A stretch of DNA of 64,000 nt from Antrihabitans stalagmiti (GTDB lineage: Bacteria > Actinomycetota > Actinomycetes > Mycobacteriales > Mycobacteriaceae): contig NZ_JAEMNV010000004.1 of the NCBI RefSeq assembly GCF_016482825.1, positions 186,001 through 250,000 of the forward strand, written 5' to 3'. The notes beneath the pieces were generated by a model that was not told the DNA's origin, searched no databases, and worked only from the letters and a program-made list of their open reading frames with translations. This document shows, piece after piece, positions 14,327-30,739 of this stretch (position 1 is the first letter of the stretch; each line of letters opens with the position of its first letter). A program made the position numbers and the translations under genes.

Positions 14327-14414
14327 GGAAGCGTGGCAGAGCGGCCGAATGCACTCGCCTTGAAAGCGAGCGTCGTGAGAACGACCGGGGGTTCAAATCC
14401 CTCCGCTTCCGCCA
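14327..14414 (+). tRNA. tRNA-Ser(UGA)
   Basis: An 88-nt class II tRNA. The acceptor arm pairs GGAAGCG with CGCTTCC, the anticodon loop is CTTGAAA (anticodon TGA), there is a long variable arm, the T loop is GGTTCAAATCC-like, and CCA is encoded. The last part is the left attachment site of the element, so integration leaves the tRNA intact. Confidence 0.96.
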
Positions 14415-14419
14415 AAGTT
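14388..14419 (+). repeat. attL core: 32-bp repeat in tRNA-Ser 3' end
   Basis: A 32-bp sequence running from the T arm through the CCA end and five bases beyond is repeated exactly at 30708-30739 in the same orientation. The flanking bases differ on both sides. It defines the left end of the integrated element. Confidence 0.93.
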
Positions 14420-14424
14420 CGACC

Positions 14425-14465
14425 GCCCGCTATTTGCATCTAACGTGCAGGTAGCGGGCTTTTTG
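14425..14465 (+). terminator. Intrinsic terminator after tRNA-Ser
   Basis: GCCCGCTA (14425-14432) pairs with TAGCGGGC (14452-14459), followed by TTTTTG. It lies just inside the element, so the integrated tRNA-Ser gains the element's terminator. Confidence 0.75.
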
Positions 14466-14488
14466 TTGCTCGCGCCATCAAGATCAAA

Positions 14489-15622
14489 CTACGTCGCTGC
14501 CCACACATTGCCCACATTCGCGCCAGATCTAGCCTTATCCAAGGCGATGCCAACGGCGTCGAGATCCTCGTCGAACAGGTCTGCGTACGTGTCGAGGGTC
14601 ATCGCCGCCGAGGCGTGTCCGAGCATCCGTTGCAGTGCCTTCACGTTGACGCCGGCCGAAACCGCGAGGCTTGCCGCGGTGTGGCGAAGGTCGTGCGGCG
14701 TGACGCGGGGGATGCCCGACTTCTCGACTGCCTTCGTGAACCAGCCGGTGAAGCTGACCGATCGTCGAAGGTGCTCACCGTCGCGGCCGGGAAACACGAG
14801 ATCGTCGCGCGCCTTGCCCTCGCACTGGCGGGCCAGCTCGACGACGAGAAAGTCTGGGATCGGGACTGAGCGCGTCACGTGACTTTTCGGAGTGCCGACG
14901 TGCATGACCATGTTTACTTGCACGGCGTTTTCGCTTACGACGAGACGTTTACGCAACAGGTCAAGATGCTTCACGCGTAGACCGATCGCTTCGCCCCACC
15001 GGAGGCCGCAGTACGCGAGTAGGAGCACGAGCGTCTGGCGGTCACCGGCGGCGGTCGCGAGTGCATCCACCTGCGTATGCGTTAGGTAGATCCGTTCCTT
15101 GCGCTGTTTGCGTGGCAGGTTCTCGACGCCCCGCGCCGGGTTCTTCGCCAGTCGCTTCGCTTTCACGGCGCTGTCGAGCACCCCGGCAAGTACGCCGTAT
15201 GCGCGGATGACGACGGTCGCACCCTTGCCCTTCACCTTCACACCGTCGATTGTCTTGTCGCGGCCGAGGTCGGCGATCCAGCGCTCGACCGCATCGAGGT
15301 CGACGTCGGCAAGGCGTTCCCCGCCCCATCGTGGCTCGACGTGCACACGCCACGCAGTTTCGAGGGACTTGTAGGCAGACGGTTTCAGGTCGGACTTTTT
15401 GCGCTCCAGCCACGTCGGCCCGATCTCGCCGACCATGATGTAACCCAGCTTCGGCGGCACATACTCGCCCCGCATCTTCTCGACTTCGACCGTCGCGGCG
15501 AAGTCCTGTGCTTGTCTCTTGCTGGTGAATCCGCGTTTGTCCGTTTGACGGCGGTCGGGCGTCCGATACCGGACTCGGTAACGTTTGCCCGTTGCGGTCT
15601 GGTAGCTCTCAATTGTCGCCAC
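14489..15622 (-). CDS. int: Tyrosine site-specific integrase
   Basis: A 377-residue phage-type recombinase. An N-terminal arm-binding domain (YRVRYRTPDRRQTDKRGFTSKRQAQDF) is followed by a SAM-like core-binding domain near residues 65-165 and the catalytic domain. The catalytic residues are visible as CGLRWGEA (Arg), HDLRHTAAS (His-x-x-Arg) with LGHAS (His), and LDTYADLF (Tyr nucleophile). It is transcribed toward attL, only 69 bases away, and uses a GTG start. Its first 14 bases overlap the end of the repressor gene, so int is probably made from the repressor transcript. The codons near its 3' end contain two candidate arm sites. Confidence 0.93.
   Translation of the reverse strand: MATIESYQTATGKRYRVRYRTPDRRQTDKRGFTSKRQAQDFAATVEVEKMRGEYVPPKLGYIMVGEIGPTWLERKKSDLKPSAYKSLETAWRVHVEPRWGGERLADVDLDAVERWIADLGRDKTIDGVKVKGKGATVVIRAYGVLAGVLDSAVKAKRLAKNPARGVENLPRKQRKERIYLTHTQVDALATAAGDRQTLVLLLAYCGLRWGEAIGLRVKHLDLLRKRLVVSENAVQVNMVMHVGTPKSHVTRSVPIPDFLVVELARQCEGKARDDLVFPGRDGEHLRRSVSFTGWFTKAVEKSGIPRVTPHDLRHTAASLAVSAGVNVKALQRMLGHASAAMTLDTYADLFDEDLDAVGIALDKARSGANVGNVWAAT
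14498..14516 (+). promoter_or_regulatory. Candidate integrase arm sites, left flank
   Basis: Two copies of TGCCCACA lie 11 bp apart, inside the last codons of int. Three similar copies stand at the other end (30597-30625). In the excised circle they would lie on both sides of the attP core, as expected for arm-type integrase sites. Confidence 0.5.
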
Positions 15623-16250
15623 GGATTAGCCTCTCCCGCATCTCTGATTTGAGGGTGCGGGCGACCCGCCCGCGTTTCTGGGCGCTCGATCCTTCGCCTG
15701 CTCGGAAGTTTCTCTCCGCCGAGAAAGATCTGCCCCAAAGTTTCTGTGCCAGTTCGCCAAAGCGCTTCGGTGAGATGTTCAGGGAGGCTGCCGCGCGCAA
15801 CTCGGCTTCACCTCCCGCCTGGCGGAAGGCCATGTCGCGAAGATTCCGTTCGAACTCGTCGTGGGTTAGCTCAACGATCGGGCGTCCGCCGGCGTCGTGG
15901 CCCACGACGTTCCTACGTCGATCTGCGGGTGTTCCCTGGACGAGTCTGACTATGTCAGCGCCGCTTAGTTCGATCCTTTCGGTGAGTTGGACCAGGCCGT
16001 CGTACTGAAACAGATCCCCGAGGCCGACTTCCGCTTGCGTCACCTCGCTGAGCGTCACGCAGAGCGCGATGAGCATGGGAAGCGTCGGGCTTACCTTGCC
16101 CTTTTCGAGTGCAGACACGCGGCTGTCGGTCCATTTCAAACCAAATCGGCGTGCTGCGGTTGCAATCTCGTCAGTCGTGGCGCCGTACGTCGTTCGCAGC
16201 CGGAGCACGTTTTGGCCGACGACTTTCGCTAGGGGCACTGGCGTTTCCAT
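15609..16250 (-). CDS. XRE-type repressor of the element
   Basis: A 213-residue protein with an N-terminal helix-turn-helix (VVGQNVLRLRTTYGATTDEIATAARRFGL, DSRVSALEKGKVSPTLPMLIALCVTL) and a longer C-terminal part without a visible peptidase motif. The C-terminal part contains SPKRFGELAQKLWG and a basic tail. The position upstream of int and divergent from the AlpA-like gene is that of a lysogeny or satellite master repressor. ATG 16250 is chosen because the HTH follows at the usual distance. The 110-base divergent gap contains an inverted repeat suited as operator. Derepression by a helper-phage protein, as for Stl of SaPIs, is possible but not shown. Confidence 0.75.
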   Translation of the reverse strand: METPVPLAKVVGQNVLRLRTTYGATTDEIATAARRFGLKWTDSRVSALEKGKVSPTLPMLIALCVTLSEVTQAEVGLGDLFQYDGLVQLTERIELSGADIVRLVQGTPADRRRNVVGHDAGGRPIVELTHDEFERNLRDMAFRQAGGEAELRAAASLNISPKRFGELAQKLWGRSFSAERNFRAGEGSSAQKRGRVARTLKSEMRERLIRGDN

Positions 16251-16271
16251 GACCGAGAGAGTACCGCAAAA

Positions 16272-16303
16272 AATCGTCGGCTTGACGATTGGCAGTGAAT
16301 CGT
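16272..16303. promoter_or_regulatory. Candidate repressor operator and rightward promoter
   Basis: AATCGTC-5 bp-GACGATT (16272-16290) is a perfect inverted repeat and overlaps TTGACG (16282-16287), a good -35 box. A further half-site AATCGT lies at 16298-16303. A TATCAT box at 16329 could serve a second rightward promoter. The location between the divergent repressor and AlpA-like genes fits an operator. Confidence 0.5.
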
Positions 16304-16360
16304 GGTTATCTGGCCTCAGACCGCAAGATATCATCGGATTGAGAAGTGAGGAATCGGCTC

Positions 16361-16576
16361 ATGAACGAGGAAGGTCGGCCACCGTTGGCCACACCCGCTG
16401 AGGTTGCCGAATATCGGCGGGTAACAGTCGCCGCGTTGGCGCAGGAGCGCTATCTGGGGACTGGTCCGAAGTTTAAGAAGCTCGGCAAACGAGTGCTTTA
16501 TGACTGGGCCGACGTCTACTCGTGGATCGACGGAAACACCATGGCTCGCACAGACGGCGGTCGCGGTGCGGCCTGA
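16361..16576 (+). CDS. AlpA/excisionase-like DNA-binding protein
   Basis: A 71-residue protein with a single winged helix-turn-helix of the MerR/excisionase (HTH_17) type: LATPAEVAEYRRVTVAALAQ, then GPKFKKLGKRVLYDWADVYSWI. It is the first gene of the rightward operon, where phages and satellites place Xis or AlpA, so it probably assists excision or activates the operon. A GTGAGGA ribosome site lies ten bases before ATG 16361. Its end overlaps the next gene's GTG start by 11 bases. Confidence 0.72.
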   Translation: MNEEGRPPLATPAEVAEYRRVTVAALAQERYLGTGPKFKKLGKRVLYDWADVYSWIDGNTMARTDGGRGAA

Positions 16577-16856
16577 AACGGTTGCGCTTGCAGAGATCGC
16601 CATAAATCGCATCGAGACTGCGCTCGATTCTGCAGGCACAACCCGCCTATCGCTTGCTACCGCTACAGGAATCCCGGTGTCGACGCTACGGCGTCGGATG
16701 AAGGGTCACGGAGCCCTTGACATTGACCAACTCGAAAGAATCGCAACAACTTTGGGGTACGAAGTCGAAGCTTTCGTGCTCCCCGAGGACGAATGGCGCG
16801 GCTTACAACGGCAAACGCGTCATGACATGCCTGACCAACAGAACGGAGAGATGTGA
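16566..16856 (+). CDS. Small XRE-type DNA-binding protein
   Basis: A 96-residue protein. Residues about 15-70 form a lambda-repressor-like HTH (NRIETALDSAGTTRLSLATATGIPVSTLRRRMKGHGALDIDQLERIATTLG), followed by a short acidic tail. It starts with GTG inside the AlpA-like gene and ends four bases before the next ATG, so it is translationally linked to both. A Cro-like or auxiliary regulator role is inferred from fold and position. Confidence 0.68.
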   Translation: MRPETVALAEIAINRIETALDSAGTTRLSLATATGIPVSTLRRRMKGHGALDIDQLERIATTLGYEVEAFVLPEDEWRGLQRQTRHDMPDQQNGEM

Positions 16857-16858
16857 TC

Positions 16859-17359
16859 ATGTCCAGCCCTGAACCATCCTCGGAAGCCAGTCCCGACGAG
16901 TTCGCCGCGTGGATGTCCCGCGCGCATCCGGACGTCGCTCGTGAAAGCGCTCTTTGGCGCTGGCACCGCCACGACTTCGAGCATGCGGCCGTCACTGATT
17001 TGACTTCGATCCGCCCTCCAGCGGAAAAATGGATCAGCAGCAACTGGACTCGGTACTCCGATGTCGCTGCACAGACCGAGTTCTGTTCGGTTCCGCTGAG
17101 CGTGCGACTCGACCGTCACGCCGGGGAGTTGCACAAGGGTCAGAAGCAGCTGACGCACGCGTTCGCATCAGTGCAGCTTGCGCAGGTGGCAGTAGAGACC
17201 GCGCCGATTGTCGAATTGCTTCGTCACGGCATGGTTGATACGGATGATGTTCTGCCGCAGCCCGGTTCACGCTACCGGCTGACGTTGGACGAGGCTGCAG
17301 GGCTAGCACACCTGTTGTTGCTCGCCGTTGACGTCGCTCGCGCTGAACGGTCCCAATGA
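16859..17359 (+). CDS. Element protein of unknown function (166 aa)
   Basis: Not recognised. The protein is soluble and acidic at the N-terminus (SSPEPSSEASPDEFAAWMSRAHPDVARESALWRWHRHDF). The C-terminal half has a predicted helix (TLDEAAGLAHLLLLAVDVARAE) similar in style to the end of the next small protein. The ATG follows GGAGAG by about nine bases. It lies in the tightly packed rightward operon between two DNA-binding proteins and the Rep-like gene, so an early regulatory or replication-accessory role is possible. Confidence 0.6.
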   Translation: MSSPEPSSEASPDEFAAWMSRAHPDVARESALWRWHRHDFEHAAVTDLTSIRPPAEKWISSNWTRYSDVAAQTEFCSVPLSVRLDRHAGELHKGQKQLTHAFASVQLAQVAVETAPIVELLRHGMVDTDDVLPQPGSRYRLTLDEAAGLAHLLLLAVDVARAERSQ

Positions 17360-17559
17360 TGGCGTACGCGTACATGGACGCCATCCTCGAGCAGCCCGAG
17401 ATCCGGACGGAAAACTATCCCAACGAGCCGGACCGGGCTCGAATCAGCGTCCGCTACGCGTCACTCGTTGTTCATTTGAGCCTCACGGAGGCGACGGAAC
17501 TTGCAGCCGCGCTCGCTTTGGCATTGACGGCCGTTGATACCTCCGAAGCGAGGACATGA
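17356..17559 (+). CDS. Small element protein (67 aa)
   Basis: Not recognised. It has a short charged N-terminus, two strands (ARISVRYASLVVHLSL) and a C-terminal helix, TEATELAAALALALTAVDTS, that resembles the C-terminal helix of the preceding protein. It overlaps the previous stop with ATGATG, indicating coupled translation. Codon use is like the rest of the operon. Confidence 0.55.
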   Translation: MMAYAYMDAILEQPEIRTENYPNEPDRARISVRYASLVVHLSLTEATELAAALALALTAVDTSEART

Positions 17560-17565
17560 GAGCAA

Positions 17566-18195: not shown

Positions 18196-18377
18196 CCACG
18201 ACGATCGACAGATACGGCGAACCGATCAACGACGATCCGCCAACCGCCCACGATGCAGAACGCTGCAGTGGTTGGCGCGGAGAAGATTTCGACGGGCGAC
18301 CTATCCCGTGTCTGCTGTGTAGGCCGCATCTCGCTCACACTGCGAAGGTGTACGACGGCGCAGGGATGATCCGGTGA
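18192..18377 (+). CDS. Small Cys-rich element protein (61 aa)
   Basis: Begins MTTTIDRYGEPINDDPP. It contains CSGWRG...PCLLCRPHL, three cysteines and a histidine that could bind one zinc ion. It overlaps the Rep-like gene and the WhiB-HTH gene by four bases each, so it is part of the same translational chain. A DNA- or protein-binding accessory role is possible, but the family is not recognised. Confidence 0.6.
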   Translation: MTTTIDRYGEPINDDPPTAHDAERCSGWRGEDFDGRPIPCLLCRPHLAHTAKVYDGAGMIR

Positions 18378-18901
18378 CTTCCTCGTTCTACGACAACCTC
18401 GTCAATGCTGTGTTGGTGGGTGCACCGAGCTTGCCGACCGCACGGTGCGCGGGTCGTCCGGAGTTGTTCGACGCGGACGTTGACGGAGAATCCGTCCAGG
18501 CTCGCACAGTTCGCCACGGCCTCGCACGCGCCGAGTGCTGCAGATGTCTCGATCTGTCCGCATGCCGGGAATGGTTGCAGCGGATGGACATTCATCACCG
18601 AGAGGTAAGCGGCATCGTCGGCGGCGAATCGAGAGGCTCCGACGAACGCGCAGCAGTTCCGAAAAGCATTCCAGTGCAACGAAATAAGATGCTCGACATC
18701 GACTCTGAGATCTACATACCGTTGCGCAGTGCGATGCAACTCACCTCGCGCTCAAGATCAACGATCTTGCGGTGGGTGAGGGACGGTCGAGTCGAACGGA
18801 TGCTGCTTCCGGACGGTCTCGTCGGATTCTGTGAGGACGACCTCCTCAGGGTTGAAGCTGAGACGCGCCGCGCGTTGGCGGCGAACCGGAGCGTCGCGTG
18901 A
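18374..18901 (+). CDS. WhiB-like Fe-S domain fused to an HTH domain
   Basis: A 175-residue two-domain regulator. The N-terminal 85 residues match the WhiB pattern: cysteines at 25, 55, 58 and 64 give C-x29-C-x2-C-x5-C, ARCAGRPELF precedes the first, and SGIVGGE replaces the usual G-V/I-W-G-G turn. The C-terminal part (YIPLRSAMQLTSRSRSTILRWVRDGRVE) is an excisionase/MerR-like HTH. WhiB proteins bind a 4Fe-4S cluster and region 4 of the principal sigma factor; phage WhiBs can act as dominant repressors. Here a DNA-binding domain is added in cis, so the protein may redirect host RNA polymerase to element promoters. GTG start overlapping the previous stop. Confidence 0.75.
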   Translation: MTSSFYDNLVNAVLVGAPSLPTARCAGRPELFDADVDGESVQARTVRHGLARAECCRCLDLSACREWLQRMDIHHREVSGIVGGESRGSDERAAVPKSIPVQRNKMLDIDSEIYIPLRSAMQLTSRSRSTILRWVRDGRVERMLLPDGLVGFCEDDLLRVEAETRRALAANRSVA

Positions 18902-19305
18902 CGGGCTCCGGCGCGGTGATGTTGGCGTTGCCGCCCGAAATTTGTCGTCACGTTTGCATCGCGCTGCAGAGGTACATCCAGCACCGCAAACGGTCAGGGA
19001 TGGTGATACCTGCCGAAATCCGAGAATTGGAACACAACCTCATCGAGTGGTCACGAACGATCAGTAACGGTCAGGAGCGGTCACGGTTTGCGCCTTCGGA
19101 ACCGGAGGCCGAATCTGACGACATGACCAAGACTCTTGTCGACTATTCCGAAGCCGCACAGATGCTTTCGGCGTCGTACTCGACAGTCCAGCGCATGGTG
19201 CGAACGGGGAAGTTGCATCCGATCCTGCTCGGCGCCAGGACCCCGCGAATCGCAGTCGAGGAAATCCGTGGACTCGTAACGGCACGCGATATGGCGGTGG
19301 TCTGA
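18898..19305 (+). CDS. HTH protein of the element (135 aa)
   Basis: The C-terminal 60 residues form an excisionase/HTH_17-type domain (VDYSEAAQMLSASYSTVQRMVRTGKLHPILLGARTPRIAVEEIRGLV), resembling that of the WhiB fusion just upstream. The N-terminal half is helical (ALPPEICRHVCIALQRYIQHRKRSG). It starts with GTG within the WhiB-HTH stop. A transcriptional or excision role is inferred; the similar domains in adjacent genes suggest duplication followed by divergence. Confidence 0.62.
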   Translation: MTGSGAVMLALPPEICRHVCIALQRYIQHRKRSGMVIPAEIRELEHNLIEWSRTISNGQERSRFAPSEPEAESDDMTKTLVDYSEAAQMLSASYSTVQRMVRTGKLHPILLGARTPRIAVEEIRGLVTARDMAVV

Positions 19306-19306
19306 C

Positions 19307-19618
19307 ATGAGTTACGAAGTGTTCGTCGATCAAGACGGTGTGCCGGCAGTGTCGGTCGACCGCGAACAAATCTTCCGCGACGCCGCCGAACTCGTCACGA
19401 AATTACTTGTGCTGAAGGAAGATTCACATTCAGCAGTGCGCGTGATCACCGACGAAGTCCAGGCACAAGGCCAACTCGCGCAAGCGGTAATGGGTGACGC
19501 CCTCGTGCTTCTGTCGTCACGAATAGTAGCCCCGCTGTTCCAAGTGCTCGAGACCAAAGGGATGACGAGCGCCGAGCTGTTCGACACATGCGTCACAGCC
19601 TTCGAGCGGGGACGGTGA
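19307..19618 (+). CDS. Small protein preceding the tape measure gene
   Basis: A 103-residue protein, not recognised. The sequence is mostly helical (REQIFRDAAELVTKLLVLKE, QAQGQLAQAVMGDALVLLSSRIVAPLFQVLE). It sits one base after the previous stop and eight bases before the tape measure start. In normal siphophages this position holds the G/GT tail chaperones made by frameshifting; this protein is short and I see no slippery sequence or extension frame, so it is not an evident chaperone. Confidence 0.6.
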   Translation: MSYEVFVDQDGVPAVSVDREQIFRDAAELVTKLLVLKEDSHSAVRVITDEVQAQGQLAQAVMGDALVLLSSRIVAPLFQVLETKGMTSAELFDTCVTAFERGR

Positions 19619-19625
19619 TACTCCG

Positions 19626-22600
19626 ATGACCGGTGGCCGGATCAACATTCTTGTAGACCTCGACACCGCGGCCGCTATGTCGCAGCTCAAGACCCTCGGC
19701 GGCGCCATGGGTGTGACTCTTGGTGTCGCCGGGATCGCGGCAGGGTTCGGCAAAGTCGTCAGCCTCGGCAACGATCTGACGAACACGCTGAACACCATGC
19801 AGGCGGTCTCGTCGGCGACCGCTGATCAGATGGCCGCCGTGTCGGAACGGGCAAAGCAGCTCGGCAACGACATGACGATCCCGAACACGTCGGCGACGAA
19901 TGCAGCCGAGGCGATGACCGAACTCGCCAAGGGCGGTCTGTCGGTCGAACAGACGATGGTTGCTGCGAAAGGCAGCCTGCAGCTTGCGGCGGCCGCGCAG
20001 ATTGACGCCGGAACGGCCGCGAATATTCAGGCGCGTGCGTTGAACGCCTTCAAACTGGAGGCGTCAGACGCAACTCTCGTAGCCGACACGCTAGCGAACG
20101 TGTCGAACGCAGCCAGCGGTGAGATTGGCGATTTCGCGATGGGGCTGAATCAGTCCGCACTTGTTGCGAAAGGACTCGGCCTTTCTCTGGAGGACACTGC
20201 AACGACGCTCGGACTCTTCGCGAAGAACAGCCTTCTGGGATCAGACGGCGGCACGAGTCTCAAGACGATGCTGATCGCGTTGGAGTCGCCGAGTAAGGCG
20301 CAGGCCGCTGCTCTTCGGGAGTTGGGTGTAGAGCAGTTCAACGCTCAGGGTCAGTTCGTCGGTATGCGCGTGGTGACGGAGCAGTTAGCGGCTGCTCAGC
20401 AGCGGATGACGACCGAACAGTTCACCGCGGCGGCGGCGACTGCGTTCGGCACCGACGCGGTCCGTGGTGCGACTGCATTGGTTGCCGAAGGCGCAGCGGG
20501 CTGGGATGAGATGGCTGGCGCCATCACTCGTCAGGGTGGCGCGGCGGAAGTTGCGGCCGCGAAGACGCAGGGGCTTCCTGGTGCGTTGCAGCGGGTGCAG
20601 AACGCAGCCGAGACTTCTGCGCTGGCACTGTACGAACTCGTCGATGGTCCGTTAGAGAGGTTGGCGAACTTCGCTGCTGGTGGACTCACCAGCGCTACCG
20701 AGGCGGTCGGGAATCTCGGATCCGGATCAGCGGCGTCCGTGCCGTTCGTGCAGGGATTCGTCTCAGCCTGGGACGGTCTGCCCGAGGTCGGCAGCAAGGT
20801 CATCAACGTCTTGCGTCCGATCGGTGAAGTCGTTCGGGAGAACGTCGAGGCGCTTGGGCAATCCGGTGGTGTGGTCGAGACGGCAGGGCAGGCGCTGCAC
20901 GGACTTGTCAACATCGCCGGTGCCGGACTGACGATCCTCACCCCGTTCGCGGAAGCGGTCGGTGCTGTCGGTTCGTTCTTCGCTGGGCTACCCGGTCCGG
21001 TGCAATCCGCAGTGGTCGCGTTGGTCGCGTTCCGGTTGCTTATGCCCGCGATCACAGCCTCGTTAGCGACAGCGGGAGCGGCTCTGTCCCGATTCGCGAT
21101 TACCGCAACGGGCCAGGCGGTCGGCGCACTTGCCGCAGTCACAACTTCCTTCACGACCGCGGCGGCTGCGGCAACGCGATTCGGTGCGGTTGGTCGTGTC
21201 GTGGCAGGTGGTATGTCGGTCGCGCGGGTCGGGATCAGTTCGTTGACGTCCGCGCTCGGCGGACCGTGGGTGCTCGCGCTCGCGGCGGCGACCATCGGTA
21301 TCACGTCCTGGATGGCGAGCAACGACGCTGCGGCCGAACGCGCAAAGCGGCTGCGGGACGCGACGGTGCAGATCGCGGCCGCGCAGCGCGACATGTACAA
21401 GGCGTTCACCGAATCCAACGGCGGATTGTCGCAGTTGGCGCTGTCGTCGATCAGCGTGCAGGTCGAAGCGGTAACCGGCAAGATCGACACGCTGACTGAG
21501 AGCGGCGCGAGCTGGACGAACTATGTCGGCGACGCCTTGCAGACTGTGTCGGGGTTTTGGGCGAACTCGGCCGGCGAACATACTGCCTACCTGGAGGAGC
21601 AAGAGGGCCGCGGCGACCGTATGAAGGCGGTCTATCAAAGCCTCGGCCTGAACGCGCAGCAGTTGGCCGAGCAGTTGGCCAACGATGACACGTGGCCCGA
21701 ACTGCAGCGCAAGCTCGAAGGGGCTGGGCAGGGCGGTGCCGAGTTGCTCGCCGAACTCGGCCCGCTGCACGAGGAGGCGGTGCGCGCCCGGCAAGACGCG
21801 GCGCTGCTGACCCCGGGCGTGTCGGATTTGTCGGCTGCGGTGAAGACGCTGGCGGACACGTCCTCGTCTGCCGAGGAACAGCTCAGCGCTTTGCACGAGA
21901 TCTTGGATGTGTTGTCGGGCAAGCAGATTCCGCTGTCGGAGGCGGTGGCGTCCTACAACGACACCATCAACAAGGTTGTCGAATCCACTGCTGAGGCGGT
22001 CGATCAGACGAAGGGGTTCGGCGACGCTCTTGTTGGTGTGAACGGTGCCGTCAACACGGTGCTGCCGAACGGTGGGGCGCTGTTCGATCAGTTGGTCCGG
22101 TTGCGTGGCGAAAGTGAAAAAGTTGCGCTCGCTGCCTACAACCAGAAGATTCAGACCGGCACTGTCGCCGAAGCTCAGCAGGCCGCACGCGAGCAGATGG
22201 CACGCACAGCCGAAGCGCTGGGTCCGCTTGCCGCCAAGTACGGGATCAGTGCCGACCAGATCGAGCGCATGGCACGCGAGGCGGGTCTCGTGCCCGAGAC
22301 GATCGTGTCGGCGGTGGCATTACAGGGTGCGAGCGAGTCGACGCAAGAGCTGTTCATCATCAACCAGGAACTTGCGAAGGCTGGCGCAGGGGCGTCGGTC
22401 ACGGTCGATGCACCGACCGAGGACGCCCGCAAACAACTCGAAGTGCTCGGCGTGAAGATCGAAGAAGTTGCAGGACACCCGAACCTGGTGAAGATCACCG
22501 CGCCGAATGAAACGGCGTTGCAGCAACTTGATCAGATCACGAAGGTGATCGACAGCGCGACGCGGACTCGGTACGTCGACATTGTCCCGCGACGAGTCGG

Positions 22601-24347: not shown

Positions 24348-24379
24348 ACCGAACGAAAAGCAAAGGGAGACAGTAACTA

Positions 24380-24622
24380 ATGCAAGATGCGATCGCTCCA
24401 GGCAGAGGTCACTTCGACGCAGCCGGAAACTACTACCTGCCAGAGGGGCGCGGCGTTCTCTCGCAGACAGGCGTGTACACCGATCCGCACGGCGCCAAGA
24501 TCTACGGCGCGGCCCAGTTCCGCATAAGTCCAGACACGGGCGGATTGGTCCCGCGGGTGCCGATCCGCGACGCAGCGGATCCGCAGCGGATCCGCAGCCG
24601 CTGCCGCCGATCGTCCCTGTAG
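24380..24622 (+). CDS. Short protein after tape measure, frame altered by an 11-bp repeat
   Basis: Eighty residues in the present frame: MQDAIAPGRGHFDAAGNYYLPEGRGV, then FRISPDTGGLVPRVPIRDAADPQ and an arginine-rich tail. The tail arises from an 11-bp tandem duplication at 24572-24597. With one copy removed, the frame continues as PLPPIVPVGPGWPVPPA and stops at 24651, a proline-rich end that looks more natural. The gene may therefore be frameshifted, or may switch by repeat slippage. The function is unknown; its place after the tape measure suggests a virion-related peptide. A GGGAGA ribosome site precedes ATG 24380. Confidence 0.6.
   Translation: MQDAIAPGRGHFDAAGNYYLPEGRGVLSQTGVYTDPHGAKIYGAAQFRISPDTGGLVPRVPIRDAADPQRIRSRCRRSSL
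24572..24597 (+). repeat. 11-bp tandem repeat causing a frameshift
   Basis: Two full copies of GCAGCGGATCC and a partial third (GCAG). Eleven is not a multiple of three, so loss or gain of one unit changes the reading frame of the overlapping gene. Confidence 0.85.
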
Positions 24623-24704
24623 GCCCAGGCTGGCCCGTACCGCCCGCATAACCCCACAGCCCCCGCATAACCCCGACAAACGAACCAACCGCAGGAGGAC
24701 CCCC

Positions 24705-25466
24705 ATGAAAACACTGATGCACACACTGATGTCCGAGCGGATCGCGCTGAGGGCTGCACTGACGGACAACATCCGCCGTGCGACGAAGCCGGATCCGAAC
24801 TACACACGAGAAGCGAACGCGCAGCGCGCCAGCGAGGTTCGAGCGCAGCTGCTTCGTGATGGCAATGCTGTACTCGCTGAGCACGCACAGAAAGCGGCGC
24901 AAACCGCAGCGCAGTTGAAGATCGCTGCGGCAGGGGAGAGGCCTCATGTGGATGCGAGTTCGGCTGCCGATCTGATCCGTACGGAACAAGCGTGGCGGAA
25001 CAATGTGTTGCCAGAGTTGGAGCGGGGCAGACCACTCAACCAGGTGCTGAGCGACGCTGCCGTCGACGACGTCCTCGGTGCGGAGCGATTCGCGCCGGCC
25101 TACTACCGGTCGAAGTTCAACAGCAACACGAGTCTGTCGGCGATGCAGGAGGGGTATGACGCCTCGACCATGCGAACGACGCTCACGCCCGCCGTACAGG
25201 ATCTCAGCTTCGTCGATCACGCGATAGCAGACCGGTTTGCGAACATGGCACCGACAAGTGCCGCAGCAGATTTGATCCGATTCGCTGCCCGTGCTGATGT
25301 CGATCTCGCCACGTACCGCGATGTCGCCGCCAGTGTCGATCAAGGCGACGCGATGGGTGCCCAGATCACCATCCACTTGAGCGCGCAGAGCGGTTACGCC
25401 GCAGAACCAGCGCACGAAACGCAGGAGCAATCTGCGACCAGCAACAACGCTCCCGCCGACGCATAG
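24705..25466 (+). CDS. Element protein of unknown function (253 aa)
   Basis: Not recognised. The protein is helical, rich in alanine, aspartate and glutamate, with a disordered Ser/Thr/Ala-rich end (HETQEQSATSNNAPADA). The segment VDLATYRDVAASVDQGDAMGAQ recalls hypothetical proteins from actinobacterial prophages. A strong GCAGGAGGA ribosome site precedes the ATG. It lies alone between the tape measure region and the possible packaging site, where a virion component or scaffold-like morphogenesis factor is conceivable. No signal peptide or membrane segment is visible. Confidence 0.62.
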   Translation: MKTLMHTLMSERIALRAALTDNIRRATKPDPNYTREANAQRASEVRAQLLRDGNAVLAEHAQKAAQTAAQLKIAAAGERPHVDASSAADLIRTEQAWRNNVLPELERGRPLNQVLSDAAVDDVLGAERFAPAYYRSKFNSNTSLSAMQEGYDASTMRTTLTPAVQDLSFVDHAIADRFANMAPTSAAADLIRFAARADVDLATYRDVAASVDQGDAMGAQITIHLSAQSGYAAEPAHETQEQSATSNNAPADA

Positions 25467-25529
25467 GAAACGCGCGAACTGTGAACGGGACGGAAGCCTC
25501 TGCGGGGTCCCCGTCCCGGTGCACAGCTA

Positions 25530-25585
25530 CCCAGGGGGGTGGGCCTCTCCCATCCGTCTCTGGCACTGAGCGACCAGGCTCTAGA
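25530..25585 (+). repeat. Repeat copy A, possible cos/packaging sequence
   Basis: About 56 bp that recur imperfectly at 29139-29195. Shared blocks are CCCAGGGGGGTGGG, CCTCTCCC and GGCACTGAGCGACC followed by GCTCTA. The first two blocks form a short G/C hairpin in both copies, although its sequence changes. Copy A stands 50 bases before the small-terminase-like gene, where cos sites usually lie. Confidence 0.5.
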
Positions 25586-25634
25586 AGGTATGTCGACCGA
25601 AAAACTCAAGTGGGAACTTTGCTAGGAGGGTGAA

Positions 25635-26015
25635 TTGCCGCCCCTGATGAACCAGCAGACACCGAACAGCCGGGCTCGACGTCGGTCGAACGCTCCTGGT
25701 CACCGGCCCTTTTTCGTCGTCCTGCCGAGGGAAGGGTGCACGGACCCTGTCCCCAAAATTCCGGCAGGCAGAGTGTGGTCGAGGGTCGAAAAACAGCGTT
25801 GGAAAGAGCTGTGGACGTCGCCGCAGGCTACGCAATGGGACGAATCGGCGGCCGTAACCGTCGCTTTGCTCATCGCATACGAGACTCAGCTGCTTGCCGG
25901 TGAGGGCGCAGCGTGGCTCGCGCAAGAAGCACGTCACGCGGGCGACGCTCTCGGACTAACGCCGCGCGCGATGGCCGCCCTCGGCTGGACAATCGGCGAC
26001 CGGACGTCGCAATGA
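25635..26015 (+). CDS. Small terminase subunit-like protein
   Basis: A 126-residue protein. The pattern IPAGRVWSRVEKQRWKELW, SPQATQWDESAAVTVALLIAYETQLL, and EARHAGDALGLTPRAMAALGW matches the compact small terminase subunits of actinobacterial phages (an LW-x-SPQA-x-x-W-[DE] helix pair and a C-terminal LGLTP-x-x-x-x-LGW/LRW). TerS selects DNA for packaging; satellites such as SaPIs use their own TerS with the helper's large subunit. No large terminase follows. AGGAGGG five bases before TTG 25635 favours that start over ATG 25647. The following gene overlaps by four bases. Confidence 0.65.
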   Translation: MPPLMNQQTPNSRARRRSNAPGHRPFFVVLPREGCTDPVPKIPAGRVWSRVEKQRWKELWTSPQATQWDESAAVTVALLIAYETQLLAGEGAAWLAQEARHAGDALGLTPRAMAALGWTIGDRTSQ

Positions 26016-26212
26016 CCAGTGCACGCCGACGGGCCCGATCGAAGGATGGAAGCCTTGAATCCGGTGAGTCGGCCGGCGGGCGACAACACCACATGCTTCG
26101 GAAGTTCCGTCCTAATATCGCCCGAGGATGTATCGATTGCAGCAGCCTGATCGAGCCAAATGAACTTAGCGCGATTCTCTGCCCAGCCTGCTTGTCGCGG
26201 CGAGACGCGTAG
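26012..26212 (+). CDS. Small zinc-ribbon protein (66 aa)
   Basis: The N-terminus is very basic (MTSARRRARSKDG). The C-terminal half contains CIDC then CPAC separated by 16 residues, a four-cysteine zinc ribbon. It overlaps the TerS-like gene by four bases, so the two are translated together. It may assist DNA binding in packaging or regulation; the function is not recognised. Confidence 0.58.
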   Translation: MTSARRRARSKDGSLESGESAGGRQHHMLRKFRPNIARGCIDCSSLIEPNELSAILCPACLSRRDA

Positions 26213-26244
26213 CGAATCGGCGTAGGCCATCCTTCTCAAGGCGC

Positions 26245-26655
26245 TCATGCCCGTCGGGTTTTGGCGCTCTGGGCTGCGCACCACGCGTCGACAGTCGATT
26301 CCTCAAGCAGCAGAGGCGAATTCGGCGCATCACCGTTCTTCCAAGCTTGCGAGTAAAGAGGATGCCCCTTCACTCTGAGCTGGCGAATGCGGTTCGGCGT
26401 GTGTCCAGTCCTCGCCGAGATTCCTTGGATGTCTAGCAAGTGTGGTGGGTTGTCGATCGGCGCGCCGATGCTTTTGCGCGAATTGTGCTCGGTCTGTTGT
26501 GACTGCACCGTTACCGTCGGCCTTGCGTCGTCCTGCAGAAAATCGGTTGCGAGTATGAACCTCGCCCTCTGGTCGTTGCTGATGATCCCCGCGAAATCGA
26601 GCTGATCAAGCAATGTGCGGAGCGCGTCGATCTGTGTTGAAGAGGGTGTGTGCAC
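26245..26655 (-). CDS. HTH-containing element protein, reverse strand
   Basis: A 136-residue protein. The C-terminal half (LLDIQGISARTGHTPNRIRQLRVKGHPLYSQAWKNG, then LLEESTVDAWCA) has the layout of an excisionase/MerR-like HTH with wing. The N-terminal 70 residues are polar. The start is GTG. It is read leftward, divergent from the Ntn-hydrolase gene with about 200 bases between them that hold no other gene and presumably both promoters. It could regulate the cassette to its right. Confidence 0.6.
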   Translation of the reverse strand: MHTPSSTQIDALRTLLDQLDFAGIISNDQRARFILATDFLQDDARPTVTVQSQQTEHNSRKSIGAPIDNPPHLLDIQGISARTGHTPNRIRQLRVKGHPLYSQAWKNGDAPNSPLLLEESTVDAWCAAQSAKTRRA

Positions 26656-26854
26656 GCGCTAGATCCTCCGGGTTGCGGTCTTTGCGCCATGGATCACGGC
26701 CAAAGAAGGCCCACGCATACTTGGGTTGCATCGGGGCCGACGGCTTGTTAGCGGCGCACGGACCCGACAATCGCGAATCGCGAGTAATGGAAACCAGGAG
26801 GAGCCCGCGCGCGCCGGTCGAGCGTCCTCACCTGCGCCGACTAGTCTGACCGGC

Positions 26855-27685
26855 GTGACGGTTGCGGTATGGGTGAAAGTGTTTGATGGAATCGTGCTTT
26901 CGACGGACTCTGCGAGTACGGCGCTGCTACCGAATGGTTCGGCTCAGGTCTACAACAATGCCGACAAGATCTTTCACCTCCACAGGAAGCTACCGATTGG
27001 AGCAATGACCTGGGGACTGGGCCAAATAGGTCCCGCTTCCATCTCAACGGTTTCGAAGAGCCTCCGATTGAGACTAATGGGACGTGATCCTGACCACCCG
27101 GAGTGGGAAGTCGACGCGGACACCTACACCATCGAAGGGGTCGCAGAGCGCGTCGCAGAAATGTTCTGTGAGCTGATGAAACAGACCAACCAGGACGATT
27201 GGCCAGGGCAGCTGGGCTACCTGGTTGCCGGGTTTTCTGCAAAGAGTGACCAGTCAGAAGCTTGGCTTCTCAAATTCGAAGACAAGGTCGACGAGGTGCC
27301 TGGACCGGAGCAGGTTGCTTCCACCGACCGATGGGGGTACGAGGCGTACGCGCAGCCTGACGCTGTAGATCGCCTGTTTCGGGGCTACGACCAGCGTCTT
27401 CTCGCGAGGTTGTTGGCAGCAACGCCTCCGCAGCATCATGCCGATATGGTCGCCCTACTGGAGGAACATCACAGGGTTCCGCTTCATCCAGCGATGCCCT
27501 TCCCCGACGCGATCGCGCTAGCGAAGTTCATGGTAGAAACCACTGCTGGATTCACCCACTTCAACCTGGGGCCGGATACAGTGGGAGGACCAGTCGAAGT
27601 CGCTGGAATCAACCTGCACGAGGGATTTAGGTGGATCAAGCGGAAGCACTACTTTTCGACTGAACTGAACCAGGGAGAGCTTTGA
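26855..27685 (+). CDS. Proteasome/HslV-like Ntn-hydrolase
   Basis: A 276-residue protein starting at GTG 26855 with M-T-V-A-V-W-V-K-V-F-D-G. After Met removal Thr becomes residue 1, as in HslV. IVLSTDSAS places an Asp at position 17 after Thr1, and NNADKIFHL supplies the lysine (position 37, four later than the usual 33). IGAMTWGLGQIG matches the glycine-rich strand after it. These are the core catalytic features of proteasome beta-type N-terminal nucleophile hydrolases. The rest (about 200 residues, with GQLGYLVAGFSAKSDQSEAWLLKF as the next strands) is divergent. There is no propeptide and no ATPase partner nearby. A Ser/Gly-rich 59-residue gene overlaps its stop. Fold assignment is by motif; the role in the element is unknown. 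Confidence 0.68.
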   Translation: MTVAVWVKVFDGIVLSTDSASTALLPNGSAQVYNNADKIFHLHRKLPIGAMTWGLGQIGPASISTVSKSLRLRLMGRDPDHPEWEVDADTYTIEGVAERVAEMFCELMKQTNQDDWPGQLGYLVAGFSAKSDQSEAWLLKFEDKVDEVPGPEQVASTDRWGYEAYAQPDAVDRLFRGYDQRLLARLLAATPPQHHADMVALLEEHHRVPLHPAMPFPDAIALAKFMVETTAGFTHFNLGPDTVGGPVEVAGINLHEGFRWIKRKHYFSTELNQGEL

Positions 27686-27864
27686 TGAGTGCGAAATTCG
27701 TGACCTTCAATGGTGGGTCGGGTTCGTCGAGCTCGAAGAGCAGCGGCGCGTCCCGAGGAGTGTTTCGATCGGGTGGACAGACGTTCCAGATGCCGCCCCG
27801 CCCGACAGTCACCGTCCCGCGGCCAGCGTCGAAGCAGTCGGGCTCTGGAACGAAGGGCAAATAG
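27685..27864 (+). CDS. Ser/Gly-rich 59-aa protein coupled to the Ntn-hydrolase
   Basis: The ATG overlaps the last base of the hydrolase stop, and GGGAGAG lies 8-10 bases upstream, so coupling is likely. The sequence is low complexity and unstructured: FVTFNGGSGSSSSKSSGASRG, then FRSGGQTFQMPPRPTVTVPRP, ending KQSGSGTKGK. It has no signal peptide. It could be a substrate, inhibitor or degron-bearing partner of the hydrolase, but nothing in the sequence proves that. Confidence 0.6.
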   Translation: MSAKFVTFNGGSGSSSSKSSGASRGVFRSGGQTFQMPPRPTVTVPRPASKQSGSGTKGK

Positions 27865-27976
27865 TTCGGCTGTCGTCAACATTGTGGGCCGCGACGGATT
27901 GAACCTGATTCTGACCGGTGATGTAGTGCGTGAGCGGACCTACTGGTCCCGCACCCCGGTCGGTATGACGGGCGGC

Positions 27977-28828
27977 TTAGCAACCTAGTCGTTTTGTCGC
28001 TCGGCGCGTCGAATTCCTCTGCACGTATTGCCTCGATCTCGGGGACAAGCCCGCCGGGTCGGGAGCAAGTACAAGTGCGGGCTTGTAGGTCAGGTCTAGC
28101 GCGGCGAATATATCGCTGTCAGTGAGCCGCCATTTTCGTCCGATCTTGTGGCCGGGCAGCTTCCGTTCACGAAGATGTCGGGTGTACCACTCTTTGCTAG
28201 CGCCGATCTTTTTGGCCGCCTCTGCGACCGAATAGGTGACGATCGGACGCGGATCCGGGATGGATTGCTCCTCGGTCAACTCAGCTTGTGTGGTCGTGAC
28301 GTTGTACTTCATTCGGCGTGGGTGTTTGCCAGAATCGTCGGGCGGCAAGTGCGTTGCGACGTAGGTGAGTTGCAGCGCGTCCTTGATGTCATGCTCGGTC
28401 ACTTGCCACCTACCGCCTCGTTTGTGGCCGGGTAGGCGCCGAGCGTGCAACTTGTCGAGATACCAGGATTCTTTGGCTCCCAACCGCTCGGCTGCTTCAG
28501 TGACACTGTAGAAAGTCGCCAGAGGGTGCACGGGGTGTGGCGGCGGTAGTACGGTCGCGTCTACCCGCAGTTCGCTGTTCTGCCAGCGGCCATACGTTGG
28601 TTTTGAATGTCCCTCTGGGAAGGTCTCATGCTCCATGTAATGCACGCCGGCAGCGGTGACCTTCGGGTTGAGGTCTTTCGATGTTCTGGAGATGGTCACC
28701 AACTGCCGGTCCGCGAGCGCAATCACGGTTGTCCCGAATGTGGCCGCGTCCCAGGCTATTTCGGTCGACTTTGACGCGATCCAACGGAGGATTTCGAGTT
28801 GCCGAGCGTTCAGTCGGCGATAGTTCAT
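27977..28828 (-). CDS. Protein with two tandem AlpA-like HTH domains
   Basis: A 283-residue protein. The N-terminal winged helix-like part (LNARQLEILRWIASKSTEIAW) is followed by two similar excisionase-type domains, YSVTEAAERLGAKESWYLDKL...LPGHKRGGRW and YSVAEAAKKIGASKEWYTRHL...LPGHKIGRKW, about 90 residues apart, then a basic tail. The internal duplication suggests binding of two adjacent or one palindromic site as a monomer. ATG 28828 is preferred; upstream in-frame codons lack conserved features. It may regulate the accessory end of the element. Confidence 0.66.
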   Translation of the reverse strand: MNYRRLNARQLEILRWIASKSTEIAWDAATFGTTVIALADRQLVTISRTSKDLNPKVTAAGVHYMEHETFPEGHSKPTYGRWQNSELRVDATVLPPPHPVHPLATFYSVTEAAERLGAKESWYLDKLHARRLPGHKRGGRWQVTEHDIKDALQLTYVATHLPPDDSGKHPRRMKYNVTTTQAELTEEQSIPDPRPIVTYSVAEAAKKIGASKEWYTRHLRERKLPGHKIGRKWRLTDSDIFAALDLTYKPALVLAPDPAGLSPRSRQYVQRNSTRRATKRLGC

Positions 28829-28923
28829 TGCCAATTCACTCGGCACGGCGTCGAACTGGCCCGCAGCTCTCGGCGGCGCCGGATCTGCGCATTCATCCAC
28901 TGCCGAACTTGCTCGTCGGTCAT
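28825..28923 (-). CDS. Possible 32-aa peptide upstream of the tandem-HTH gene
   Basis: MTDEQVRQWMNAQIRRRRELR followed by a short tail, ending in a TGA that overlaps the next ATG by four bases. The start resembles the first helix of small regulatory proteins. It may be a leader peptide, a real small gene, or a start displaced by frameshift. No independent support. Confidence 0.3.
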   Translation of the reverse strand: MTDEQVRQWMNAQIRRRRELRASSTPCRVNWQ

Positions 28924-29138
28924 CCGCGAGGTCACTCCCAAAGCTTAGAACTAGGGTCAAGGGGTGAGGGGTTGGTGGACTGCGCACGATGCACGAAACG
29001 GATTGCTGCGGGTGAGCCCGTGGGATCTCGGGCACGACGATGTGAATCGGACTGTGTACCGGTCTAGCAACACGATCCGAATCTTAAAACTGTTGCACAC
29101 CAACGGATTACGTGCGACCGCCTGCAGTACTGCCCAGG

Positions 29139-29195
29139 CCCAGGGGGGTGGGGCCTCTCCCCCGAATCTCCGGGCACTGAGCGACCGAGCTCTAA
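29139..29195 (+). repeat. Repeat copy B of the possible packaging sequence
   Basis: An imperfect direct repeat of 25530-25585, with the same order of conserved blocks. It lies in the 660-base gene-poor stretch 28924-29586, which also contains the perfect palindrome GGTTAGGCCTAACC (29259-29272) and the candidate ncRNA. Confidence 0.5.
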
Positions 29196-29339
29196 AACGC
29201 GCGGAGGGTTCAAAACTTGGACGGCCGAACGTCGAAAAGCTTCCGGCACTGTCGACAGGGTTAGGCCTAACCGTTACGAAAGCGTTACTTCACGTCAATA
29301 GCCCAACCCCCTGTGCGCCGTCGAACGACTGCAGTTAGG

Positions 29340-29570
29340 GGCGTCCGTCTTGGGCGCTGACGGCCGAACGCCGCTACGGCCACACCGCCTTCTGGACCCG
29401 CGCCTACCGAGGGCGCTGTGAGCCATTTAAGGGCTATCTAGCACCAGGCCGGGAGACGGACCTGCCTTTGACGACCTTGGCGCGACGCGGGTACCTTTTA
29501 TTCATCAACCCCGGCCCCTCTGTTAGTCACCGACTGCGTGTCACCGGCTAACAAGGGCCGGTTTTCTTTT
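29340..29570 (+). ncRNA. Candidate structured RNA upstream of the AbiF-like gene
   Basis: This non-coding stretch has a possible long-range pairing of GGCCGGG (29447-29453) with CCCGGCC (29510-29516) and ends in a terminator-like hairpin and U tract directly before the Abi gene. The abiF RNA motif is known to precede abiF genes in many bacteria, so a related RNA is plausible here. Its 5' end is not defined and the structure is only hand-folded. Confidence 0.4.
29544..29570 (+). terminator. Terminator/attenuator before the Abi gene
   Basis: CCGGC (29544-29548) pairs with GCCGG (29557-29561), followed by TTTTCTTTT. TGTTAG (29521-29526) could alternatively pair with CTAACA (29548-29553), which would compete with this hairpin. 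Confidence 0.5.
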
Positions 29571-29586
29571 GGGAGCAGTTGCGCCA

Positions 29587-30567
29587 GTGGCGGAGTACAA
29601 CAAGCCCCATCGCAATTTCAACGAGCAAATTGCGCTCATGAAGTCGCGAGGGTTGGGCTGCGAGGACGATCGTGCAGCCGTGCAGGCGCTGAAACGAATC
29701 GGCTACTACCGGTTGTCCGCCTACTCCTACCCATTCCGGCGCTTCGACCCAGATCGCCCGGGTAAACGGTGTGACGAGTTCATCGCAGGTGCGACCTTCG
29801 AACAGGTCGTGGAACTATGCGATTTCGACAGCAAACTGCGAGCGCAGATGCTCGTAGCCGCAGAGATCGTAGAGGTAGCGCTCCGCGTTCAGGTCGCTTA
29901 TTTTCTCGGAAAGCGCGAAAGATTCGGTCACCTCGACCGGGTTCATCTCGACGAAGGTGAGTGCGCAGGACGGCGTGGCACCCACGAGAAAGACGTGCAT
30001 ACAGACTGGATTGACCGGTATGAGCGCCGCGCCTCTGACTCTCAGAACGAGGACTTCATTCGACATTTTCGCGAAAAGTACGACGGCCAATTACCGATCT
30101 GGGTGGCGGTTGAGATCTTAGAGTTCGGTCAGCTTGTCCGGCTGTACGGAATGCTCGACAAGCAGGACAAGCGGCGGATCTCGGATCATTTCGGAGTGAA
30201 GGGCCACAACGTGTTGCATAAGTGGCTGATCCGGCTCAACAATGTGCGAAATCACTGCGCACACCACGACAGGATATGGAACCGGATCGCGGTGTACGGG
30301 ATTCCAGCCGTGCACGAACAACAGGTCCCCGCTGCGCTAACGCACTTGTCGAGGTTGGGCGACGACGATAGGAAGCGGATTTACACTGCAGCGGCACTGA
30401 GCGCGCATATAGTGACACTTTCCAAACCCGAGACCAATTGGCCTCGATCTTTTAAGACAGTCGTCAGCAAACTTCCGCTTCGAGATGGTGTGGTTACCGA
30501 GGCTGTCATGGGCTTCCCCACCGGGTGGAAGAGTTTCGACATTTGGAACTACGAACCGAAACGGTAG
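29587..30567 (+). CDS. AbiF/AbiD-like (Abi_2) abortive infection protein
   Basis: A 326-residue protein from GTG 29587. The N-terminal pattern NKPHRNFNEQIALMKSRGL...GYYRLSAYSYPFR is the hallmark of the Abi_2 family. LNNVRNHCAHHDRIWNR provides the R-x4-H motif of HEPN ribonucleases, and VEILEFGQLVRLYGML is the conserved helix before it. Such proteins stop phage growth by RNA cleavage or cell arrest. An in-frame TTG at 29569 is a possible alternative start; the chosen GTG follows GGGAG. It is the last gene before attR, the usual place for accessory defence genes, and may work with the upstream ncRNA candidate. Confidence 0.8.
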   Translation: MAEYNKPHRNFNEQIALMKSRGLGCEDDRAAVQALKRIGYYRLSAYSYPFRRFDPDRPGKRCDEFIAGATFEQVVELCDFDSKLRAQMLVAAEIVEVALRVQVAYFLGKRERFGHLDRVHLDEGECAGRRGTHEKDVHTDWIDRYERRASDSQNEDFIRHFREKYDGQLPIWVAVEILEFGQLVRLYGMLDKQDKRRISDHFGVKGHNVLHKWLIRLNNVRNHCAHHDRIWNRIAVYGIPAVHEQQVPAALTHLSRLGDDDRKRIYTAAALSAHIVTLSKPETNWPRSFKTVVSKLPLRDGVVTEAVMGFPTGWKSFDIWNYEPKR

Positions 30568-30596
30568 CGCCGACTGCGTCCAGCATGCCGCCTGCG

Positions 30597-30625
30597 TGCC
30601 CACATTCTGCCCACACTTGCCCACG
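30597..30625 (+). promoter_or_regulatory. Candidate integrase arm sites, right flank
   Basis: TGCCCACA at 30597 and 30608 and TGCCCACG at 30618 repeat at 10-11 bp intervals, in the same orientation as the pair inside int. GGTGAAT occurs twice just beyond (30632 and 30642), possibly for Xis. Confidence 0.5.
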
Positions 30626-30707
30626 AAACATGGTGAATCTAGGTGAATTACAGTGATGTGTTTGTGCAGCTAGACGGCGAATCGGGCCTCTGACCAGAGG
30701 GTCGAAT

Positions 30708-30739
30708 GGGGTTCAAATCCCTCCGCTTCCGCCAAAGTT
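30708..30739 (+). repeat. attR core: displaced tRNA-Ser 3' end
   Basis: An exact 32-bp copy of attL. The upstream sequence does not complete a tRNA, so this is the copy displaced by integration. The 357-base stretch from the Abi stop to rsdA holds only the arm sites, this repeat and a terminator. Confidence 0.93.

Follow-up and report, generated by a model that had tools for sequence, protein, structure and literature searches.

A probable phage satellite in Antrihabitans stalagmiti that encodes its own tape measure protein

The window analysed here, a 64,000-nucleotide stretch of Antrihabitans stalagmiti contig NZ_JAEMNV010000004.1, contains a 16.3-kb element (14388-30739) that is inserted at a tRNA-Ser gene and encodes a 1573-aa tape measure protein (TMP). 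The question raised by this locus is what use such an element, in which no capsid, portal or large terminase (TerL) gene is recognised, has for a tail protein of this kind. The element, from an actinobacterium of the same family as Rhodococcus, Gordonia and Williamsia, is very probably a phage satellite. We consider it probable that it is an integrated, cos-packaged satellite resembling the phage-inducible chromosomal islands (PICIs), with a siphophage of the Nyceirae type as its helper, and that its own TMP serves to build chimeric tails. What can be read directly from the DNA is the att boundaries, the gene content, an intact TMP, a small terminase subunit (TerS) and a cos core like those of the presumed helper, and the recurrence of TMP genes in other elements.

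PICIs are compact islands (~10-20 kb) with an integrase and att repeats, divergent regulators, and excisionase-like and replication genes; they carry their own TerS and/or a helper cos or pac site, lack TerL, and are induced, excised and transferred by a helper phage. The exact 32-bp att repeats described in the first-pass annotation are borne out, at a spacing of 16,320 bp, and together with the integrase they delimit a compact island. Integrase and repressor-like genes come first, on the minus strand. On the plus strand, an AlpA-like gene, a helix-turn-helix (HTH) regulator and small genes precede an O-like replication gene; regulators and a 103-aa gene then lead on to the TMP, behind which come an 80-aa and a 253-aa gene and TerS. 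Accessory genes, AbiD among them, occupy both strands 3' of TerS (Table 1). The predicted integrase and Rep-like gene agree with Pfam and PHROGs, the AlpA-like gene with phrog_66, and the supposed defence-type accessory gene is AbiD according to both Pfam and PADLOC. For the predicted repressor, an HTH gene is present beside the integrase, with weak Pfam matches below the cut-off. The divergent arrangement of the repressor-like and AlpA-like genes and the presence of an O-like replication gene are PICI traits recognised on weak matches, in a layout common to the relatives. The element further has its own TerS and a cos core, and no TerL was found.

Capsid, portal, large terminase and other tail genes had been reported as lacking, and none was recognised by tblastn or PHROGs, although strongly diverged tail genes could escape these searches. 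When 57 proteins from two actinophages were compared with the element by tblastn, only the TMP and TerS matched at E<=1e-3, and no relics of structural genes appeared at this threshold. A PHROGs scan of 20 called open reading frames (ORFs) gave no head or tail family beyond the TMP and the TerS ORF at E<=0.01; the MerR/excisionase-type HTH gene had one TerS match at E 0.1. No capsid module (capsid, portal, TerL, connectors) was found with PHROGs, tblastn or profiles, and neither two major capsid protein profiles nor PHROGs matched a major capsid protein. The element differs in this respect from capsid-forming PICIs (cf-PICIs), which have a capsid module of their own, none of whose genes was found here.

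The TMP is an intact ORF of the predicted length, supported by both Pfam and PHROGs. The claim that it ends its operon is incorrect, since the same strand continues with the 80-aa and 253-aa genes. The TMP search matched 1288 phage records, and the six top rows belong to five Nyceiraevirus phages (Nyceirae, present twice, Dogfish, Ewald, Phishy and Meyran), while 16 pattern matches in genome contigs included no true relative. Identity to the Nyceirae TMP in successive blocks of 100 residues is 45, 54, 38, 47, 34, 24, 28, 25, 20, 25, 23, 47, 17, 40 and 67%, with 32% in the last 73 residues. The N-terminal 400 residues (38-54%) and residues 1301-1500 (40-67%) are thus conserved, and residues 501-1100 are only 20-28% identical. 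The five Nyceiraevirus TMPs are 1833-1848 aa long, so that the satellite protein is 260-275 residues shorter. With its lytic transglycosylase (SLT) domain, the protein could have another role, in which the hydrolase would adapt helper particles to the host wall for DNA entry or host range and the length would be incidental. Of seven satellite TMPs searched against Pfam, four have SLT or NlpC/P60 domains, in one case slightly under the curated cut-off; the hydrolase part (residues 1369-1447) lies, however, within the stretch most similar to helper-type TMPs, which suggests little specialisation, and we regard this explanation as distinctly unlikely.

The small-terminase-like gene proposed earlier belongs to phrog_226, which also includes the proteins annotated as TerS in Nyceirae, Dogfish and LonelyBoi. 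This PHROG carries the label 'minor tail protein' and is the only head or tail match in the element, at E<=0.01, other than the TMP; the phage relatives directly precede TerL, and the one in the TPA4 record bears the same 'minor tail protein' label. We read the gene as TerS because it shares its PHROG with annotated TerS and because its phage relatives adjoin TerL. The cos-like repeat that had been noted before TerS is a partial copy, but an intact cos-like core is present ~3.2 kb beyond the gene, where a second copy of the flank repeat (29142-29199) runs into the 14-nt core CGCGGAGGGTTCAA at 29200-29213. The Nyceirae record begins with 13 nt, followed by the core CGCGGAGGGTTCAA from nt 14. 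The two copies of the flank repeat (within 25533-29199) are 3.6 kb apart and enclose TerS, the phrog_5990 gene and the double-HTH gene; this duplication may mark an insertion of cargo beside cos.

When 50,697 phage records were searched with a 45-mer from the Nyceirae terminus, 27 matched at E<=10; 22 of these matches lie at the left terminus of the record (6 Gordonia and 16 Arthrobacter, some phages being duplicated) and five elsewhere; the Arthrobacter matches are weak (E 3 to 9) and were counted for their position alone. The Ewald and Meyran records note joined cohesive ends. At least 120 viral stretches contain the core, and among the matches listed, 13 have it within 60 nt of the end of the stretch; in eight of these, among them a duplicate of Nyceirae, the offset is 14-15. 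The 6.4-Mb host genome has a single copy of the core, that of the element. Ten copies were found in the 401 genomes of the family, compared with five for a reversed control, and the three of these ten that were examined sit in satellites of the same integrase family (the window element, L083 and L080).

Three features tie the element to Gordonia siphophages of the Nyceirae type, namely the closest TMPs, a TerS in the same PHROG, and the 14-nt core, which starts at nt 14 of these phage records. The five Nyceiraevirus phages share the cos core, the closest TMPs and the TerS family (the last tested in two of the five) with the element; they differ as complete phages of 41-43 kb and are likely the helper type rather than kin of the element. 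The first-pass proposal of a satellite that brings a TerS, is packaged in the cos manner and supplies a TMP intended for helper tails is supported by this comparative evidence, to which the att-bounded TMP elements described below contribute. Induction, excision, particle composition and tail length are inferred from the gene content, as follows. During replication of a Nyceirae-type siphophage in the same cell, the satellite would excise and replicate, and its TerS and cos site would steer the helper TerL to bring satellite DNA into helper heads. The satellite TMP would displace that of the helper as the core for polymerising helper tail proteins; its conserved parts would fit the helper tail machinery, and the shorter, diverged middle would set a shorter tail, ~40 nm shorter than the helper's if 0.15 nm per residue applies. 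The satellite particles would bear chimeric tails, and tail assembly of the helper would be diverted.

Several observations weigh against a cos-packaged satellite of a Nyceirae-type helper. A distance of 3.2 kb separates TerS from the intact core, and the gene is on the side opposite to its position in phages. The core (as a 13-mer with at most one mismatch) is absent from the 12 other TMP elements searched, so that the match to a helper comes from the window element only and the helpers of the others, if any, use other ends. No resident prophage carrying the cos core is present in the host genome, and no clean empty site was found; three genomes of the same genus match the left flank, and the right flank matches elsewhere. 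Finally, no tail assembly chaperone is recognised in the element, whereas the phage-inducible chromosomal island-like elements (PLEs) of Vibrio cholerae encode one; the Nyceirae and LonelyBoi chaperones match the element only at E>=0.12 (tblastn). Tail assembly chaperones diverge fast. The 103-aa gene 5' of the TMP was considered as a chaperone and rejected as a TMP-specific partner, as its relative in another TMP element (L274/L385) stands away from the TMP.

The host genome also contains a 46-kb contig (G000:C6, with loci L024, L025 and L046) that encodes a portal, MuF, tail genes, a TMP and an integrase 47-50% identical to that of the satellite, and is possibly a prophage or a free phage genome. 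This contig is not favoured as the helper, since it has no cos core and its TMP is only partly similar.

Further TMP-bearing elements were sought through the integrase, relatives of which are present at E<=1e-60 in 118 of the 401 family genomes. Set A comprises 43 loci (40 from the integrase list plus the window element, G003 and G018, the last two first picked for their TMP matches and both also in that list), and set B another 40 loci with more distant integrases. The 80 loci drawn from the list for sets A and B were taken roughly with the nearest integrases first, some near contig ends being skipped, and are no random sample; several of the stretches are too short to reveal a TMP (e.g., L093, L097, L102, L104, and L113). 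Set C (80 named loci with flanks of up to 10 kb) shares loci with sets A and B and is therefore counted separately. Five profiles (two capsid types, portal, TerL and TMP) were used; other families escape these, and the TMP profile derives from TMPs found beforehand. In set A, a TMP is present in 8 of 43 loci, capsid type one in 16, capsid type two in 4, portal in 3 and TerL in 2. Set B yielded one TMP in 40 loci, in L274, which the profile missed and ORF size recovered before it was confirmed. Set C contributed two loci from Frigoribacterium, both at tRNA-Ser and with an integrase of the same family, whose TMPs are shorter (L317, 893 aa; L320, 734 aa), and four others (L378, L379, L381, and L382) came from a search with the 253-aa protein. 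Long ORFs in L087/L300, L089/L302, L243, L249, L268 and several set C loci were outside the PHROG scan. Two TMP candidates by size were dropped, L357 (962-aa ORF) for want of a PHROG match and L254 (1028 aa) for its match to a methyltransferase.

In all, 15 TMP-bearing actinobacterial elements were found, the window element and 14 others, and every TMP matches TMP PHROGs. Nine of the 15 have clear att repeats, spaced 10.3-16.9 kb apart (window element 16.3, G003 12.6, L082 10.7, L084 10.5, L090 10.3, L274 15.5, L379 14.1, L381 13.8, and L382 16.9 kb). L378 has a tentative 21-bp repeat at the edge of its stretch, and attR was not seen in the available stretches of L095 (cut by a contig end), L098, G018 (broken by Ns after the TMP), L317 and L320. 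Three of the elements (L082, L084, and L090) are att-bounded satellites of ~10 kb that encode a major capsid protein along with a TMP and match neither the portal nor the TerL profile. Another, at tRNA-Thr (L382:1573-18502), combines a TMP with a 253-aa family protein and TerL and matches neither capsid nor portal profiles. Among the seven TMPs scanned with Pfam, three carry PF10145, three PF20155 and one neither; these differing types and the differing closest relatives suggest that TMPs were acquired several times among satellites. In the same integrase family, L094 and L248 have TerL, portal and capsid genes within ~10.5-10.8 kb between att repeats and are cf-PICI-like. Four other loci (L079, L091, L096, and L116) have the second type of capsid protein (phrog_1650 for L079), in L116 at least with a head-protease-like gene.

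This census bears on whether the window element is instead a prophage remnant from which the head and tail genes have disappeared while a TMP persisted by accident. As the longest tail gene, a TMP might survive by chance, and the cargo genes and partial duplicate of the cos flank would fit a decayed prophage. However, TMPs recur in 15 elements at tRNA genes for different amino acids (Ser, Val, Lys, Met, and Thr), the portal profile matches none of these elements, and nine of them have no other tail gene at E<=1e-3 by tblastn with the two phages. The TMP ORFs are long and open, and the window element is free of structural relics at the threshold given above. Simple Nei-Gojobori counts for L082 and L084, a single pair, give dN 0.62 and dS 1.32 for the TMP, with synonymous changes near saturation, and dN 0.15 and dS 0.74 for the capsid protein, which suggests that both genes are under constraint. 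Full prophages at the same tRNA site, with deletion junctions in the window element, would have pointed to a remnant; none turned up in the loci examined, a survey that did not search the tRNA site exhaustively. We consider a remnant highly improbable.

The 253-aa gene shortly 3' of the TMP belongs to a family of seven, the other six retrieved with this protein as the sole query. It matched 15 other genomes, of which the six at E<1e-8 were examined and nine weaker ones (8e-4 to 0.01) were left out. Four of the six relatives, or five of seven with the window element, lie shortly 3' of a TMP, and in L378 a relative of the 80-aa gene stands between the TMP and the family member. The family was not found in eight of the nine TMP elements of sets A and B, and is thus not required everywhere. 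The structure model is all helical (mean pLDDT 80.3). Foldseek gave no match at E<=0.001 in BFVD or PDB, and VIA-align rows reach Z 9.8, mostly with designed or common helical bundles; these values are usual for such folds, and no function is inferred from them. PHROGs searched with six aligned members gave nothing convincing (best E 0.0065, to a family of unassigned function), and no relatives were found among phages and viral contigs. As a guess, the protein could act in TMP loading, chaperoning or head size.

A satellite TMP has an experimentally tested precedent. The chimeric tails of PLE11 of Vibrio cholerae contain the TMP of the satellite, with a difference of 95 residues from that of the helper, and are ~10 nm shorter; loss of tmp cuts transfer by 96-99.9%, and the figure reported for a tmp deletion is ~99.9% (PMC12987554, March 2026). 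PLEs differ in that their helper ICP1 is contractile-tailed and in that they have a gene for a tail assembly chaperone and, in some cases, one for a hub (PMC12987554); the window element has a siphophage-type TMP, no recognised chaperone, its own TerS and a helper-like cos core. The claim that no satellite carrying only this tail gene had been described must be revised in part, since TMP-bearing satellites are now published (PMC12987554), but a TMP by itself, with no recognised chaperone, is still unusual.

The satellite TMP could also be mainly a weapon, a dominant-negative poison of helper tail assembly that protects the cell and does not enter a transmissible particle. Tail assembly is the target of known bacterial and satellite systems such as Tai (PMC11364771) and Rta (PMC12987554), and AbiD is encoded in the same element. 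This explanation nevertheless appears unlikely: a full-length TMP that keeps conserved sequence at both termini, together with a hydrolase domain, is more than a poison needs; the TMP is accompanied by TerS and a cos-like core, which serve transmission; a capsid protein stands beside the TMP in three relatives; and the PLE TMP is incorporated into particles (PMC12987554).

Other satellites resemble the element in part. Candidate PICIs of Mycobacterium, including phiRv1 and phiRv2, are defined by an integrase and a major capsid protein; like the window element they are actinobacterial, have an integrase and few virion genes and sit in several cases at tRNA genes, but 'tape measure' appears nowhere in the main text of that paper (PMC10654092), and the window element yielded no capsid gene. 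Small actinobacterial elements have been supposed to be possible satellites (PMC10023795). SaPIbov5 with Ccm is likewise a cos-type satellite with a homologue of a helper structural protein, a parallel to the capsid-bearing relatives found here, although Ccm acts on capsid shape rather than tails (PMC8569155). Putative tmp genes are reported in PLE-like elements and some cf-PICIs (PMC12987554).

In the literature examined, experimental proof of chimeric tails is limited to Vibrio cholerae PLEs (PMC12987554), and since the mechanism is already demonstrated there, the one proposed here is not new in kind. The siphophage and actinobacterial form, the pairing of TMP with capsid protein and the TMP-linked helical protein appear to be new; no description of TMP-bearing satellites in actinobacteria was found in the literature searched, whose coverage excludes preprints and most subscription journals. 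The actinobacterial TMP elements seem to parasitise siphophages, and their TMPs, of at least two Pfam types, suggest that takeover of tail assembly arose repeatedly and is general. The relatives with TMP and capsid protein raise the possibility that one satellite resets two virion dimensions. The chances are about even that these elements form a widespread, unrecognised class of actinobacterial satellites that reprogram siphophage tails, with a backbone slot held by a TMP, a capsid protein or both that resets tail length, capsid or both, and with the 253-aa family as a satellite-specific partner that helps the TMP outcompete that of the helper. The predicted helper group infects the laboratory host Gordonia terrae, so the model is directly testable.

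Table 1 Features of the element and its insertion site (positions in the window)
Feature	Position	Strand	Evidence and remarks
tRNA-Ser(tga)	14327-14414		ARAGORN; 3' end overlapped by attL
attL, 32 bp	14388-14419	+	exact direct repeat; first 27 nt inside tRNA-Ser
Tyrosine integrase, 377 aa	14489-15622	-	PF00589 1.5e-25; phrog_1
HTH repressor-like gene	15609-16334	-	HTH Pfam matches weak and under the cut-off; in some related loci a relative adjoins int
AlpA/excisionase-like gene	16361-16576	+	phrog_66 1.6e-5; relatives in most related loci
HTH regulator	16572-16856	+	phrog_4583 (repressor) 5.7e-13
O-like replication initiation gene, 209 aa	17566-18195	+	phrog_678 6e-6
Regulator	18374-18901	+	weak WhiB-like and excisionase-like matches
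MerR/excisionase-type HTH gene	18898-19305	+	phrog_66 2.1e-7
103-aa gene	19307-19618	+	no PHROG match; relative in L274/L385 (match at L385:6832)
TMP, 1573 aa, SLT transglycosylase domain	19626-24347	+	PF10145 (PhageMin_Tail) 4e-40; PF01464 (SLT) 2.8e-7; phrog_10780 4.3e-179
80-aa gene	24380-24622	+	no PHROG match; relative 3' of TMP in L378
253-aa all-helical protein	24705-25466	+	5/7 family members shortly 3' of a TMP
Partial cos-flank repeat copy	25533-25590	+	alignment; upstream of TerS
TerS	25635-26015	+	phrog_226, shared with TerS of Nyceirae, Dogfish and LonelyBoi; tblastn
136-aa gene	26245-26655	-	relative in TMP locus L381
Accessory gene, 319 aa	26726-27685	+	phrog_5990; start uncertain
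60-aa gene, serine/glycine-rich	27682-27864	+	sequence; overlaps end of 26726-27685 gene
352-aa protein, repeated excisionase-type HTH	27977-29035	-	phrog_1840 6e-30, two stretches
cos-like site, flank repeat copy and core (29200-29213)	29142-29230	+	sequence comparison with phage ends
AbiD/Abi_2 abortive-infection protein	29569-30567	+	PF07751 5.6e-53; PADLOC AbiD 7.3e-61
attR, 32 bp	30708-30739	+	exact direct repeat

Among the accessory genes 3' of TerS, the overlapping pair at 26726-27864 has no PADLOC match and looks like cargo.

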